In this document: one piece after another, positions 57,354 to 63,821 of the stretch
How the letters are laid out: each line of letters opens with the position of its first letter
Numbering within the stretch: position 1 is the first letter of the stretch
Source: Acidimicrobiales bacterium
GTDB lineage: Bacteria > Actinomycetota > Acidimicrobiia > Acidimicrobiales > MedAcidi-G1
Assembly (NCBI GenBank): GCA_029242745.1
Contig: JAQWTI010000012.1
Span: 1 to 64,000, forward strand
DNA: 64,000 nt
Reading direction: 5' to 3'
Program-made: the position numbers and the translations under genes
Notes under the pieces: model-generated
Databases searched by the model: none
What the model was told of the DNA's origin: nothing
What the model saw: the letters and a program-made list of their open reading frames with translations, nothing else

Positions 57354-58928
57354 TCAGACCCAGTGACTAGAGCTGGTTAACTCACCAACCGGTAGTCGGA
57401 TATTGAATCGGTCTCGGACTCGGGCATCGCGATCGGGCGACACGTGCGACGGGAAGTGTGAGGTCAGTACCTCGTGCACCTGCACCCTGGCACGCTCGTC
57501 AACTGAGGTAGCACCGGCATCAAACCAGTCGTCAGTACTTAGTCGGTCACCAACCTCGGGGTAGATGTATTCGCTTTGCATCATGGAAAGTGTCTGATCT
57601 TGACCTAGGAAGTGGCCAGCTCCAAAGATCACCGACTTGACTGTTTCAATCGAGAGGGTGTCCGGCGTAACCTCGATGCCCCGGACAGTTCGGTTGACGG
57701 CACCGAGCATGTCGTTGTCGATGACCAGTGCCTCGTACGAGCAAGCCAGCAAGCTGGCCAACATTCCAGCTGATTCATAGACGAGGTTGGCGCCAGCGTG
57801 TCCAGCTAGCGCAACGGTTAGTCCCTTCTCGTGTCCAGCCTGATTGTCGGGCATTTTTGAGTCACTCATGCCGGCAGCCACACCGGACGGTAGGCCTAGC
57901 CAGTTGGCTACCTGGGCGCCAGCAGCGTTCAGTACCGCCTCTTCACCTGAACCTCCAGTCATGGCGCCAGTCCGCAGATCAGAAACGAATGGCCAGAGGC
58001 CCATCACGCATGGGTGACCGGGGTTTAAGAGGTTGACGCATGTCAGTGCTGAAAGGCACTCGGCGAGGGCCTGAGTTAGAGATCCGGCCAGTGCAGCAGG
58101 TGAGGTTGCGCCTGCTTGTCCAGCTGATAGCAGGTTGATGGGCATGCCGGTATGGACCTGAGCGACCATCGAACGTACGGCATCTTCGGCATAGCGCAGG
58201 GGTGGTACGACGAAGGTGTTGTTAGCCACGCAGAATGGCCTTTGGGCAAAACTGCCGGGCTGGCCGCCAAGCATTTCGTCAAACATGTCAACAACTTCGT
58301 ACACATGTTCAGGTTGAAAAAATGATGTGCCAATCGGTTTTGAGGTTCCCATGGCCACTGCGTAGGCGGTGTTCAGGTCAAGATCGCGCGACTCGACCAT
58401 GTCGCGAGCTACAAGTGTGCGGACGTGGAAGTGAACGTGTTCGAGGGTGTCGACGAGACGGGCAACGTCATACAAATCCTGAAGATTGGACGGCCGGTGC
58501 TTGCGGGTTTCGTGCTCCCAGACTGATACGGCAGCACCAGCAGTACCGAAGTGGACCCGGTTGCCACCGACCACGATGGATCGGTCGTCGTTGAACCCAT
58601 GCCAAGTGAACTCTTTGGCTGCCATATCTATGGCGTCTTCCACTAGAGATCGGGGGAAGTGCAGCCGCTCATGTTCATCAACCCAACCTCCGGCGGGTAC
58701 AACCACCTCGATAAATTCCGGGATTGGGGTGCCCATACCGAACTCTTCGAGCATGGTTAGGGCTGTTTCGTAGATAGTGCGGCATTCGTAGTCGGTCAGT
58801 GGTTTGTAGGCACCGCCAGCCTGGCCTGGGCGAACAGCTTTCTCGTCGTCAGCGAGTCCGGCAGCCCGAGCAGCTACCCGTGCGGCCCGACCCCCCGCTC
58901 GTCCAGTGCGCTTCCCTTGGCCACTCAT
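57354..58928 (-). CDS. Trimethylamine methyltransferase (MttB)-family protein, no pyrrolysine
   Basis: 524 residues of the MttB superfamily: GTAGAAVSVWEHETRKHRPSNLQDLYDVARLVD in its conserved first half, TSFFQPEHVYEVVDMFDEML and LNAAGAQVANWLGLPSGVAAGMSDSKMPDNQAGHEKG toward the active site (in pieces). True MttB carries an amber-coded pyrrolysine; no in-frame TAG is present, so this belongs with the non-Pyl members such as the glycine betaine:corrinoid methyltransferase MtgB. The substrate is not fixed. It overlaps the preceding flavoenzyme gene by 4 nt (ATGA) and is last in that unit. No corrinoid protein gene is seen. Confidence 0.88.
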   Translation of the reverse strand: MSGQGKRTGRAGGRAARVAARAAGLADDEKAVRPGQAGGAYKPLTDYECRTIYETALTMLEEFGMGTPIPEFIEVVVPAGGWVDEHERLHFPRSLVEDAIDMAAKEFTWHGFNDDRSIVVGGNRVHFGTAGAAVSVWEHETRKHRPSNLQDLYDVARLVDTLEHVHFHVRTLVARDMVESRDLDLNTAYAVAMGTSKPIGTSFFQPEHVYEVVDMFDEMLGGQPGSFAQRPFCVANNTFVVPPLRYAEDAVRSMVAQVHTGMPINLLSAGQAGATSPAALAGSLTQALAECLSALTCVNLLNPGHPCVMGLWPFVSDLRTGAMTGGSGEEAVLNAAGAQVANWLGLPSGVAAGMSDSKMPDNQAGHEKGLTVALAGHAGANLVYESAGMLASLLACSYEALVIDNDMLGAVNRTVRGIEVTPDTLSIETVKSVIFGAGHFLGQDQTLSMMQSEYIYPEVGDRLSTDDWFDAGATSVDERARVQVHEVLTSHFPSHVSPDRDARVRDRFNIRLPVGELTSSSHWV

Positions 58929-61372
58929 ATGCGCAGCCTTTGGTTCGAAGGGTCATATGCCGGCCCGTCCAGCACGGTCAGGGTGTGACGTTCACCGAAT
59001 AGGACAACCTCAAAGGTTGAGCCGGGGGCCTCAAATGCCGGTTCGACGTATGCGAAGGCCAACGACTTCCCGACAGTGTGACCCCAGACGCCACTAGTGG
59101 TGATGCCCATACAACGCGAACCGTCCCCCGTCGGGTCGTAGCAGGGTTCATTTCCACGACAGTCCGAATCGGTGGCGTCAACTTGGCAGTACACGAGTAC
59201 CTGTTCTAGTTGGACCCCAGTGCAGTCATGGTCAAGGCTTCGACGCGAGAGGGTGGCATCTCGGCCGAGAAATTCTCGGCCGGAGTCAAGATCGACGAAA
59301 CGTTCAAGGCGAGCTTCAATGGGTGTTATCTCGGTGGTGAGCTCACCACCCCAAGCCTTGTAGGCCTTTTCCATGCGCATGGTGTTCATGGCTAAGGAGC
59401 CAAAGTGGACCATGTCATATGGTTCACCAGCGGCGATTAAAGCGCTGTATAACTGGGGCATCTGATCAATGGGGTGGTGAATTTCCCAACCCAACTCTCC
59501 AACGTAACTGACCCTAAGAACAGTGCAGTCGACACCGCCGATTTCGACCTGTTGGCAGGTCAGCCACGGCCAGGCGTTTGACGAGAGGTCGGCATCTGTG
59601 CAGGCGATCAGCACATGGCGGGCCTGGGGGCCGGTAACGGCGAGGATTCCCACCTGCTCCGTCAAGTCTTTAATGGCTACATTTTCACCAGGGAGAGCAT
59701 GCTGCTGCAGCCAGTCCATGTCGTGGCTGGTGCCGGAAATGGCTGAGTTGAGGTAGAACTGCTCAGCGTCTAGCCGAGTGACAGTCATCTCGCCTTCGAT
59801 GCCGCCCAGTTCCGTAAGTAAGTGGGTGAGACGAATTCCTCCATCTCGAGACGGCAGTTGATTAGCTGAGAGTCGGCTGAGTAGAACCGCAGCGTCAGGT
59901 CCGATCACGCTGAACTTCGCGAAGGCGGAGAGGTCAGCAATACCGACCCGATCTCGGACGCCATTGCACTCAATGCCGACGATGTCGTGGGCGTTGGATC
60001 GGCGCCACGAGTACTCTTCGGGCTCGCCGTAATAGCGGGGGCGCTCCCACCCCCACACATCTTGCCACTGGGCGCCTAAAGCATCTAACTGATCGGCGAT
60101 AGGAGTTCGTTTCATCGGTCGACCTGCTGAGCGGTACTCACCGGGCATTCGTACTTGGTACATCTCGTGGTACTCATCGATGGATTTGTCAATCGTGTAC
60201 TGCAGGTCGGACCAGGGGCCGAAGCGGCGGGGGTCCATCTCGCGCACGTTGATCTCCGTCTGACCGTGAACCATCCACTGTGCGAGGTATTTCCCAGCAC
60301 CTGGGCCTTGGGTAATGCCGATGGATGCGCCAGCACAGAACCAGTAGTTGTGGTGGCCAGCAGCTGGTCCCATCAGATAGCCCCCGTCTGGGGTATGGGT
60401 GATGGGCCCACTGACGACTTGTTTGATGCCGGCGTCGGCAAATACTGGGAAGCGTTCAGCTGAGATCTCGAGCCAGGGGGCTAACTGCTCCAGATCAGGT
60501 GAAGTTAGGTGAAAATGGAGATTCCAGTCGATCCCATCGAGACCGTAAGTAACGGAGTTCTGGGTCTCGTAAGGGCCGATGAGTAGTCCATCAATCTCTC
60601 GGCGGTAGTAACACGACGAGCGGGGGTCGCGAATGACGGGCATCTCAATGTTGCAGGCCTTCATGGCGTCGATCGGCTCGGTGACGAGGTACTGGTGGAT
60701 CATTGAGACGATCGGCACGTTGATGCCTGACATAGCACCGACTTGAGGGGCGTAGTGACCGGCTGCGTTGACCACATGGTCACAGGTGACCTCACCCTTG
60801 TCGGTGGTAACGAGCCAGCGACCGTTAGGGAGTTGGGTAACTCCGGTAACCAGAGTATGGCGAGCGATCTGGGCCCCAAGTTGACGGGCTCCTACAGCCA
60901 TGGCGTTAGTGGACCCTGTGGGGTCAGACCAACCGTCGTGCGGGGTCCAGAAGCCAAGGACGACATCGTCGATGGACTCCATAAGAGGGGCCTTGTCGCG
61001 TATCTCGTCGTGGCCGATGAGGTGCGACTCGATCCCTAGCGAATCGAGCATGGCGTTTACGTAGCTATACCACTCGGCTTGTTCGTGGTTGACAGCTAGG
61101 CGAATAGCCCCACAACCATGCCAGCCAGTGGCCATACCGGTCTCTTCCTCAAGGGTCTTGTACAACTCAACTCCATAGGCATGGACTTTTGCCATGTTGA
61201 GGCTGCCGATGAAGTGGGGGACTAAGCCAGCGGCGTGCCAGGTTGAGCCTGAGGTGAGCTCTCCCTTCTCGATTAACAGAGTGTCGGTCCAGCCTTCGTG
61301 GGCCAGATGGTAGAGAAGGCCGACGCCCATGGCGCCGCCTCCAATGATCACACATCGCGTGTCATTACGCAT
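58925..61372 (-). CDS. Dimethylglycine/sarcosine dehydrogenase-like flavoenzyme (DAO + GcvT domains)
   Basis: 815 residues. The N-terminal FAD-binding motif is CVIIGGGAMGVGLLYHLAHEG, and SGSTWHAAGLVPHFIG supplies the His that is covalently linked to FAD in dimethylglycine and sarcosine dehydrogenases. After about residue 430 comes the folate-binding GcvT-like half (VGIADLSAFAKFSVIGPDA, VGELGWEIHHP) where the released one-carbon unit is taken up by THF. Oxidative N-demethylation of dimethylglycine or sarcosine is the likely reaction. The ATG at 61372 is used. It is the first gene of the unit with the MttB-like gene and faces the initiator tRNA. Confidence 0.92.
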   Translation of the reverse strand: MRNDTRCVIIGGGAMGVGLLYHLAHEGWTDTLLIEKGELTSGSTWHAAGLVPHFIGSLNMAKVHAYGVELYKTLEEETGMATGWHGCGAIRLAVNHEQAEWYSYVNAMLDSLGIESHLIGHDEIRDKAPLMESIDDVVLGFWTPHDGWSDPTGSTNAMAVGARQLGAQIARHTLVTGVTQLPNGRWLVTTDKGEVTCDHVVNAAGHYAPQVGAMSGINVPIVSMIHQYLVTEPIDAMKACNIEMPVIRDPRSSCYYRREIDGLLIGPYETQNSVTYGLDGIDWNLHFHLTSPDLEQLAPWLEISAERFPVFADAGIKQVVSGPITHTPDGGYLMGPAAGHHNYWFCAGASIGITQGPGAGKYLAQWMVHGQTEINVREMDPRRFGPWSDLQYTIDKSIDEYHEMYQVRMPGEYRSAGRPMKRTPIADQLDALGAQWQDVWGWERPRYYGEPEEYSWRRSNAHDIVGIECNGVRDRVGIADLSAFAKFSVIGPDAAVLLSRLSANQLPSRDGGIRLTHLLTELGGIEGEMTVTRLDAEQFYLNSAISGTSHDMDWLQQHALPGENVAIKDLTEQVGILAVTGPQARHVLIACTDADLSSNAWPWLTCQQVEIGGVDCTVLRVSYVGELGWEIHHPIDQMPQLYSALIAAGEPYDMVHFGSLAMNTMRMEKAYKAWGGELTTEITPIEARLERFVDLDSGREFLGRDATLSRRSLDHDCTGVQLEQVLVYCQVDATDSDCRGNEPCYDPTGDGSRCMGITTSGVWGHTVGKSLAFAYVEPAFEAPGSTFEVVLFGERHTLTVLDGPAYDPSNQRLRI

Positions 61373-61514
61373 GATGTGTTTGCACCATCGAGGCACGGGC
61401 TTGGCTCACGGTCGGGACAGTAGTCACAACGTTTAGGGGACGGCAATGGGTTGGCAAGTTTTCTGAGGTCCTCGTCGGGTAGGCGCGTTGGTAGGGCGCC
61501 GTTAGCCTTCCGCT

Positions 61515-62451: not shown

Positions 62452-62731
62452 TGACAGCACTCATGGCCGGCCGACTGGCCTGCCATCACTCGCAGACGAG
62501 GGTGTTCCATCGCCAAAAATGTTGATTGGGTTTACTTAGACCCCAAGGGCTGTCTCCAGGGCCTTCCAGATGAGGTGATTTAAGAACACCGCTGAACCTT
62601 CCCGTTTGTCGATATAGCAGATCTACGGGACTAGCCCGCTTACAGGTTCTGCTATTGCAATGCCATGGTTACGGTGCTCCCCTGCCGGCACCTCGCTGCT
62701 ACCAGAGTTGACACGGTTGCTACGGTTGTCC

Positions 62732-63241
62732 ATGACCGAAATACGTGTGGAACGAACCATCCAAGTCCAGCGGGTAATTGCAGCCGCACCGGCGGCCATC
62801 TTCCAGGTGTTGGCCAGTCCCGCTGGGCACGTAGCAATTGACGCCTCGGGCATGCTCATGTCGGCTAGTGGGCCCCCAGTGGCCGCCGTGGACGACCGTT
62901 TTACCGTCCAGATGGATCGTGAATCGTTGCAAGACTTTCCGCTAGGTGAGTACGAGGTCATCGTGGTCATAACCCGGTTTGAGCAAGATCAGGCAATTGC
63001 TTGGACGGTCGATGGAGCACTCCAACCACCAATCGGACACGTGTATGAGTACGAACTGGAACCGGCTGACGGCGGAACCCTCGTCACCTCTACCTATGAC
63101 TGGTCAAGGATTCATCCGGATTGGGAGGCGGCCGCCGAAAGTATTTTCCCAGTCATCTCTGAAACCAACCTACGAGCGACCTTAGGTATCCTCGCTCGGA
63201 CCGTGGCACCTGGTGCGGCTCGCCCAGGCGCTGGCGACTGA
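62732..63241 (+). CDS. SRPBCC-family protein
   Basis: 169 residues of the START/Bet v1-like fold (SRPBCC, polyketide cyclase or hydroxylase activator type). IQVQRVIAAAPAAIFQVLASP is the first strand and helix, GEYEVIVVITRFEQDQAIAWTV the central sheet, and GTLVTSTYDWSRIHPDWEAAAESIFPVISETNLRATL the final strand and long helix, in pieces. It binds a hydrophobic ligand in a cavity; the ligand is unknown. The ATG at 62732 is used as it fits the domain; TACGGT sits 5 nt upstream. The selenoprotein gene follows after 28 nt. Confidence 0.8.
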   Translation: MTEIRVERTIQVQRVIAAAPAAIFQVLASPAGHVAIDASGMLMSASGPPVAAVDDRFTVQMDRESLQDFPLGEYEVIVVITRFEQDQAIAWTVDGALQPPIGHVYEYELEPADGGTLVTSTYDWSRIHPDWEAAAESIFPVISETNLRATLGILARTVAPGAARPGAGD

Positions 63242-63269
63242 CAGCATCTCTAGACGGAGCCGATGACCG

Positions 63270-63821
63270 ATGGCATGGATAGAGACGATTCGTGAAGACG
63301 AGTGGGATGGCCCGCTTGCAAACCTGCTCACCGCCGTAGTGGACCCCGGTCACGACCGGGTCGACAACATCATGCAGATCCACTCGCTGAACCCACAGGC
63401 CATGACCGCCCACGTTGGCCTCTACAGGTCGGCAATGACTGGCACAAAGACCTTACGTAAGGTCGAACGTGAGCTCCTTGCCTTGATTGTTAGTCGCTAC
63501 AACGATTGTCATTACTGAATAATCCACCACCGGCGCGGTCTGCGTCGGCTACTACGAGATGATGCCCTTCTATCAGCCATTGATGAAGATTGGCGGACCG
63601 CTGGTATGTCGGAGAAGCGGTTGGCCATGCTGGCATATGCAGAGAAGTTGACGGGTCATCCCGGAGATGTCGTCGAAGCTGACATAGTGGGCCTTCGAGA
63701 TGTGGGGTTCAGCGACCGAGACATCCTTGACATCTGTGAGGTAGTGGGCTACTACGCCTATGTAAATCGCATCGCTGACGGCCTTGGTGTATCACTCGAA
63801 TCGTGGCTTCCGGCCACATAA
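63270..63821 (+). CDS. AhpD/carboxymuconolactone decarboxylase-like peroxidase-related selenoprotein (in-frame TGA at 63516)
   Basis: 183 codons with one in-frame TGA at 63516-63518. The first part (82 residues) ends NDCHY and the continuing frame reads IIHHRRGLRRLLRDDAL, then WRTAGMSEKRLAMLAYAEKLT and SDRDILDICEVVGYYAYVNRIADGLGV. This is the normal course of the AhpD-like peroxidase-related enzymes, whose active site is CxxC in NDCHYCxxHH. Here the TGA sits precisely at the second Cys, giving Cys80-His-Tyr-Sec83. A SECIS-like hairpin starts in the codons after the TGA. The ATG at 63270 has GGAG 10 nt upstream. A sequencing error or true stop is the alternative, but the downstream frame is fully conserved. 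The partner reductase is not seen in the window. Confidence 0.85.
63519..63563 (+). promoter_or_regulatory. Bacterial SECIS-like hairpin after the TGA
   Basis: A 7-bp stem CCGGCGC (63530-63536) and GCGTCGG (63542-63548), with one G-U pair, closes the loop GGTCT. The loop begins at the 19th nucleotide after the TGA, the same position as GGUC in the SECIS of E. coli fdhF, and the shared sequence is GGTCTGC. A weaker lower stem ATAATC/GATGAT (63519-63524 with 63558-63563) may extend it. It lies inside the coding sequence, as in bacteria. Confidence 0.75.

Follow-up and report, generated by a model that had tools for sequence, protein, structure and literature searches.

The window, by which we mean the whole 64,000-nt stretch of DNA analysed, is the start of C18, one of the 55 contigs that make up a draft genome of 2.44 Mb. 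Near its end, on the forward strand, lies an AhpD-like (TIGR01926) gene at positions 63270-63821, with 183 codons followed by a TAA (63819-63821), and the sole in-frame stop between its ATG at 63270 and that end is a TGA at 63516-63518, codon 83; the initial annotation had described a frame interrupted by one TGA and no other stop, and the sequence bears this out. The motif around the TGA reads NDCHY(TGA)IIHHRRGLRRLL, which places the putative selenocysteine (Sec, U83) at the second position of a CxxU active site, C80-H81-Y82-U83. On the same strand, a candidate bSECIS hairpin, CGGCGC-GGUCU-GCGUCG, occupies 63531-63547 with its GGUCU loop at 63537-63541, 18 nt past the UGA, and by eye a possible Shine-Dalgarno GGAG can be read at 63256-63259, its last base 10 nt upstream of the ATG. 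Directly upstream, also on the forward strand, is an ORF at 62660-63241 that resembles SRPBCC/polyketide-cyclase proteins (Pfam score 24.3, under the cut-off of 27.4) and that, judging from the gap of 28 nt, is perhaps co-transcribed with the AhpD-like gene. The open length past the TGA is weak evidence alone, since six of the window's 133 open frames that run for 80 codons or more to a TGA stay open for another 100 codons or more past it, the AhpD-like gene (100) included; it is homology that decides.

Using the read-through product with Cys put in place of Sec, we obtained a match to TIGR01926, "peroxidase-related enzyme", that spans residues 3-174, and hence the TGA, with 132.3 bits (cut-off 81.8), and a match to the Pfam CMD family of 39.9 bits (cut-off 23). 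Eight distinct PDB sequences were matched by the product, the best being 3c1l, 2oyo, 2pfx and 6k40; the best solved structure aligned over residues 31-172, gap-free at the TGA, and in the three PDB alignments inspected it is the second Cys of CxxC that lies opposite the TGA codon. The placing of the TGA on the second Cys of an NDCHYC motif, as first proposed, is thus confirmed by alignment with TIGR01926-type proteins, and the family motifs that had been named downstream are indeed present after it. The product is far under the family cut-off of AhpD proper (TIGR00777, 16.2 against 191.95), and NF041238, the AhpD-related (seleno)protein model, gave 47.3 bits where its cut-off is 175; this CFYUT type (the motif according to the model's name) is a distant relative with a CxxU domain.

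The AlphaFold model of the product (mean pLDDT 81.9, pTM 0.76, termini poorly predicted) retrieved the same four PDB entries at the top, with TM scores of 0.78-0.80, and so has the helical CMD/AhpD fold. These Cys-containing "peroxidase-related enzymes" have the same fold and active-site frame and, in structural alignments, 30-34% identity to the product; they carry CxxC in the inspected alignments where the AhpD-like gene has CxxU. The debrominase Bmp8 (6ohj/6ohi) was also matched by the model, with TM scores of 0.74-0.75 at 16-17% identity. In PA0269 a five-residue proton relay has been described (Glu36, Cys48, Tyr50, Cys51 and His55), the corresponding relay of AhpD being Glu118, Cys130, His132, Cys133 and His137, in the spacing of E68-C80-Y82-U83-H87 (PMC3141380). 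The product shares the relay residues of PA0269 as well as their spacing, E-12-C-2-Y-1-C/U-4-H, and since this spacing equals that of both PA0269 and AhpD, U83 would occupy the place of the second catalytic Cys.

We searched 61 genomes, namely the window's own and 60 relatives with one per species, of which 49 gave some match and 39, including its own, gave a strong best match (E values of at most 1.8e-34, with identities of about 40-80% when its own gene is set aside). Each of the 39 strong orthologues, two of which are identical (L033 and L034), has one internal TGA, always at the same aligned codon, and E68, C80, Y82 and H87 are invariant in all 39. The other ten matches are weaker (E 3.5e-23 to 9.5e-4), and the three inspected were Cys proteins in G040 and G054 and a fragment in G014. 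Further TGA-bearing weaker rows were found at G045, G040:C117, G006:C3 and G014:C73, and second copies within genomes of the 39 have Ala (G012:C39) or Cys (G013:C27) at the Sec position. The initial annotation had allowed that relatives might show an ordinary TGA stop with unrelated sequence after it; instead they keep the TGA and the same protein beyond.

In a named genome collection 435 relatives were found and the best 80 kept. We would expect this search to catch close Cys forms, because one search pattern held CHYC and the other lay elsewhere in the protein, and among these best 80 of 435 loci the Sec codon is TGA in 79 and TTA in one (L106). Thirteen of the 80 have exactly the same CDS as one of the 39 strong orthologues. 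By title, 72 of the best 80 are actinobacterial (Acidimicrobiales, Acidimicrobiia, Candidatus Microthrix, Actinomycetota etc.), and the remaining eight are titled bacterium, Planctomycetaceae or Armatimonadetes. The TTA locus (JAJRYI010000263.1, 3460-3999) has an intact hairpin and represents a single-base error or a recent loss. In a draw of 396 genomes from the phylum, including the window's own, 46 matched at E 1e-20, and the 30 loci returned comprise 13 with TGA and 17 with Cys codons. Elsewhere, 322 plasmid records match the AhpD-like protein, all at less than 60% identity, and none of 18 pattern-matching stretches in viral contigs encodes a relative of it. One odd ORF close to the end of a contig, L071 (G014:C86), fuses a luciferase-like start with the last ~20 residues of the AhpD-like protein and is probably a chimeric assembly.

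The first 45 nt after the TGA align without gaps in all 39 strong orthologues with GGTCT invariant, and this pentamer stands at exactly +18 from the TGA in 39/39 orthologues and in all 79 TGA loci among the best 80 of 435 named relatives, against 0/17 Cys homologues. RNAalifold recovered the hairpin with its GGUCU loop unaided. Across 35 distinct rows and six pairs, 91.4% of cells were paired with nine double-change cells, values reached by 0/500 shuffles on either count; the enlarged set of 97 distinct GGTCT rows (taken from 105 distinct TGA rows after eight distant rows without GGTCT were dropped) gave 95.9% paired cells and 22 double changes, again with 0/500 shuffles for both, these being shuffles that leave kinship among the rows in place. 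Some controls on the 35 rows were weaker: "further pair types" were reached by 32/500 shuffles, and sliding the partner by +2 gave as many double-change pairs (4) with far fewer paired cells, the 97-row set behaving alike under the slide. Folding of single sequences yields the hairpin in 24/39 orthologues at 60 nt, 36/39 at 45 nt and 37/39 at 35 nt; L066, one of the two missing at 35 nt, appears by eye to have a stem of its own, shifted in register, about AGGUCU. Of the 39 orthologues, 34 reach the limit of -7.5 kcal/mol when 35 nt are folded, and the five weaker ones belong to one genus. Synonymous choice is nearly frozen in the codons of the loop (G90 GGT 39/39, R89 CGC 37/38, L91 CTG 37/39), while away from the hairpin those Gly, Arg and Leu residues that are conserved in at least 36/39 are encoded by four to six synonyms; a two-fold codon elsewhere in the gene, Y162, is also invariant (TAC 36/36).

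The two strands of the window together contain 2213 TGA triplets, of which five have GGTCT at +18 and only that of the AhpD-like gene also has a stem of at least five pairs. Its hairpin, with a 5-nt GGUCU loop, a stem of 6-7 bp, a spacing of 18 nt and an MFE of -12.4 kcal/mol, lies within the limits given for bSECIS elements (a loop of 3-9 nt with G in its first two positions, a stem of 4-16 bp, a spacing of 16-37 nt and an MFE of -7.5 kcal/mol or lower; PMC13188914). In the bSECIS of E. coli fdhF, GGTCT stands at the same 21-nt offset from the U of the UGA, although the protein is different, the stem has another sequence and RNAfold gives a longer, interrupted stem there. Eight distant TGA homologues (L181-L185, L187, L188 and L190; 36-44% identity) have no GGUCU at +18, and any bSECIS element of theirs would differ in loop or spacing. 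A search of Rfam with positions 63300-63800 returned zero matches at E values up to 5. Finally, we built a covariance model of the hairpin (R1) with the window's own sequence among its training data, so that its top match follows from the way it was made. With 150 of the 1811 initial candidates scored, it gave 17 further places in the same genome, none with an E value below 0.022, and at the first eight of these the TGA-split frames gave no convincing second gene.

The genome encodes the machinery that such a gene needs, and the absence of it, which the initial annotation had named as fatal to its proposal, is not what we found: selA, selB, selD and tRNA-Sec all occur in the same genome. The tRNA-Sec scores 67.5 bits (gathering score 47) and is called SeC(tca) by ARAGORN, nine further matches to its model all being under the gathering score; selB scores 265.1 bits (cut-off 242.25) and has the C-terminal winged-helix domain SelB-wing_3; selA scores 401.5 bits (cut-off 267.9) and selD 343.6 bits (cut-off 125). 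Both selA, which adjoins selB, and the tRNA-Sec are on contig C46. Only scores above the cut-off were counted, because below it every one of the 14 control genomes has matches to three of the four models; above it lie five controls for tRNA-Sec, two for selB, one for selA and two for selD. In the 61-genome set, 38 of the 39 genomes that carry the TGA gene have selA above cut-off, as do 10 of the remaining 22; the exception among the 39 is G026 (85% complete), where selA was not seen despite the TGA gene. In the phylum draw, selA at E 1e-30 was present in 14/14 genomes with a TGA match, 24/32 with non-TGA matches only and 232/396 overall, which indicates that the gene requires the machinery and that Cys forms do not exclude it; as the genomes are related, these co-occurrence counts are not independent.

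The genome's selD gene (C11:14443-15387, forward strand) itself contains an in-frame TGA (GAG-TGA-GCK); the hairpin predicted for it has a loop different from GGUCU, and therefore SelB here may accept various loops. A second CMD-family gene (C50:85153-85635, reverse strand; L004/L207) has an in-frame TGA in NECPI-TGA, a CxxU, followed by a predicted hairpin, and over the 61 genomes one internal TGA is present in 12 of its 15 strongest matches (E <1e-24, its own included); it is probably another selenoprotein, of a known CMD-like kind. Both of these TGA candidates were missed by R1, and their hairpins look different.

Compared with six of the eight relatives having at least 74% identity, the AhpD-like gene has pN values of 0.12-0.16 before the TGA and 0.12-0.15 after it, with pS values of 0.58-0.69 and 0.61-0.81, respectively. 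For six closer pairs among the relatives, pN stays under pS before as well as after the TGA, barring L052/L054 downstream, where differences are few and pN (0.013) is about equal to pS (0.014). The upstream and downstream parts of the gene are under similar purifying selection. In an IQ-TREE analysis of 136 distinct rows, the gene is placed in a clade of 107 that comprises 106 Sec rows, one Leu row and no Cys row (support 94/86, slightly under the starred level), and the 19 Cys rows are placed elsewhere on the tree. The Sec label requires five changes on the tree, and well-supported branches force at least four of them; most rows were picked as best matches to the AhpD-like gene, and long branches call for caution over the deep joins.

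From these comparisons we consider it almost certain that the TGA at 63516-63518 is read as selenocysteine. The CxxU selenoprotein of the initial annotation finds support in the Sec machinery, the conserved TGA, the covarying hairpin and the selection acting past the TGA, and its read-through product is matched to TIGR01926 across the codon. A draft assembly in 55 contigs could in principle harbour a nonsense mutation in a Cys gene, real in a pseudogene or false through a sequencing error, and that reading is refuted by the comparative data: with TGA at the same codon in every strong orthologue, and in all but one of the best 80 of 435 named loci, a base-calling error is untenable, selection past the TGA resembles that before it, and the hairpin is conserved and covarying, so that we reject it as extremely improbable. 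A still slighter chance attaches to a genome-wide reassignment of UGA to Trp or Gly (codes 4 or 25), for which the in-frame TGA and nothing more can be cited; it is contradicted by terminal TGA stops, both in the ORF directly upstream and in 26 of the 39 orthologues, which use TGA as their own terminal stop, and the codon sits at the catalytic Cys of the homologues. We therefore rejected an alternative genetic code as well.

Very probably, then, the locus as a whole is best explained as a peroxidase-related AhpD-like selenoprotein, with Sec inserted through SelB and a bSECIS and a redox mechanism at the active site. SelB carrying Sec-tRNA-Sec would bind the GGUCU hairpin, the start of which is 12 nt past the UGA, and would deliver selenocysteine at position 83 of what is predicted to be a small, all-helical enzyme of the CMD/AhpD fold. 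In this enzyme C80 and U83 would form a selenenyl-sulfide redox pair, with E68, Y82 and H87 as the proton relay; U83 would be the reactive nucleophile toward peroxide or another oxidant, and, by analogy with AhpD, a cellular thiol or dithiol reductant would restore it, the C80-U83 cycle thus presumably serving peroxide or disulfide chemistry. That the product catalyses thiol/selenol peroxidase or disulfide-reductase chemistry is a probable assignment. AhpD has been termed the adaptor of AhpC (PMC3141380) and its relay spacing is identical, which leaves about a one-in-four kind of chance, in plain terms a minority case, that the selenoprotein is an electron-transfer adaptor, a peroxiredoxin disulfide reductase as AhpD is for AhpC, and not itself a peroxidase; against this speaks, weakly, that no AhpC was recognised among the few neighbours scanned. 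Improbable, and clearly more so than an adaptor, is a selenoprotein with a reaction other than on peroxide, for example Sec-dependent reductive dehalogenation, as the presence of CMD-fold Bmp8 among the structural matches might suggest: Bmp8, at its 16-17% identity, comes behind the peroxidase-related proteins at 26-34%, and none of the five neighbours scanned is halogen-related.

The surroundings of the peroxidase-related selenoprotein gene gave no functional lead, with 86 loci compared and five neighbours scanned. Of these 86 loci, each taken with a few kb on either side, only those whose AhpD-like protein is 74-80% identical contain strong matches to the MaoC-like, SRPBCC, luciferase-like and downstream PhyH-like neighbours; PhyH and SRPBCC are what we take these neighbours to be. 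Further upstream in the window, on the reverse strand at 57354-61396, an MTTB-family methyltransferase gene adjoins a gene with DAO, FAO_M and GCV_T domains, presumably dimethylglycine-dehydrogenase-like, and the pair is possibly involved in methylamine or betaine demethylation.

AhpD-like selenoproteins are of a known kind, because they have been listed repeatedly: in a 2005 study of the Sargasso Sea as "AhpD-like protein" (CxxU) with 27 sequences (PMC1088965), in 2006 as two AhpD-like (COG2128) selenoproteins in genomes (PMC1794560), in the 2008 GOS analysis as "AhpD-like 1" (COG2128, CxxU, 299 selenoproteins beside 902 Cys homologues) and "AhpD-like 2" (pfam02627, CxxU, 70) (PMC2398784), and in a 2026 table as TIGR01926 CxxU, with GenBank MCB9421940.1 and the 2005 paper cited (PMC13188914). 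The novelty implied by the initial annotation was thus too high, TIGR01926/COG2128 CxxU being already a listed selenoprotein family. With the proteins of 2005, 2008 and 2026 the present gene shares, as far as their descriptions go, the CxxU, the family model of the 2026 table and a bacterial SECIS after the UGA; those of 2005 and 2008, compared by description only, came from metagenome sequence, and here the gene is in an assembled genome with the full Sec machinery. Searches of the open-access literature, with most subscription papers outside their scope, returned nothing on the subject by title for Acidimicrobi* with selenoprotein, and only the review for TIGR01926 as a selenoprotein, so the assignment of an AhpD-like selenoprotein to the Acidimicrobi* lineage may be unreported in that literature. 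The gene is a well-founded further member of a known selenoprotein family, of modest novelty, and what is added is its genomic home, a clade without a Cys form in the sample and a clade-wide bSECIS.

It is tempting, and in our judgement doubtful, to suppose that the AhpD-like enzyme of this clade is now Sec-only, with the bSECIS freezing three codons of the protein. In its favour, the 107 clade members in the tree include no Cys form; against it, the named relatives in view are the best 80 of 435, and the GOS counts for AhpD-like 1 put Cys homologues well beside the Sec members (PMC2398784). Were it true, it would suggest that the enzyme is no mere Sec variant and carries out a reaction that Cys cannot support here, a selenium-dependent detoxification of peroxide or of halogenated organic compounds.

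Gene callers that treat UGA as a stop only split such genes in two (PMC13188914), so that annotation may overlook a redox enzyme that many actinobacterial metagenome-assembled genomes carry. The clade is a nearly pure Sec set, whose covarying hairpin has the loop and spacing of E. coli, and it is useful both for training selenoprotein finders and for asking what keeps Cys from replacing Sec.
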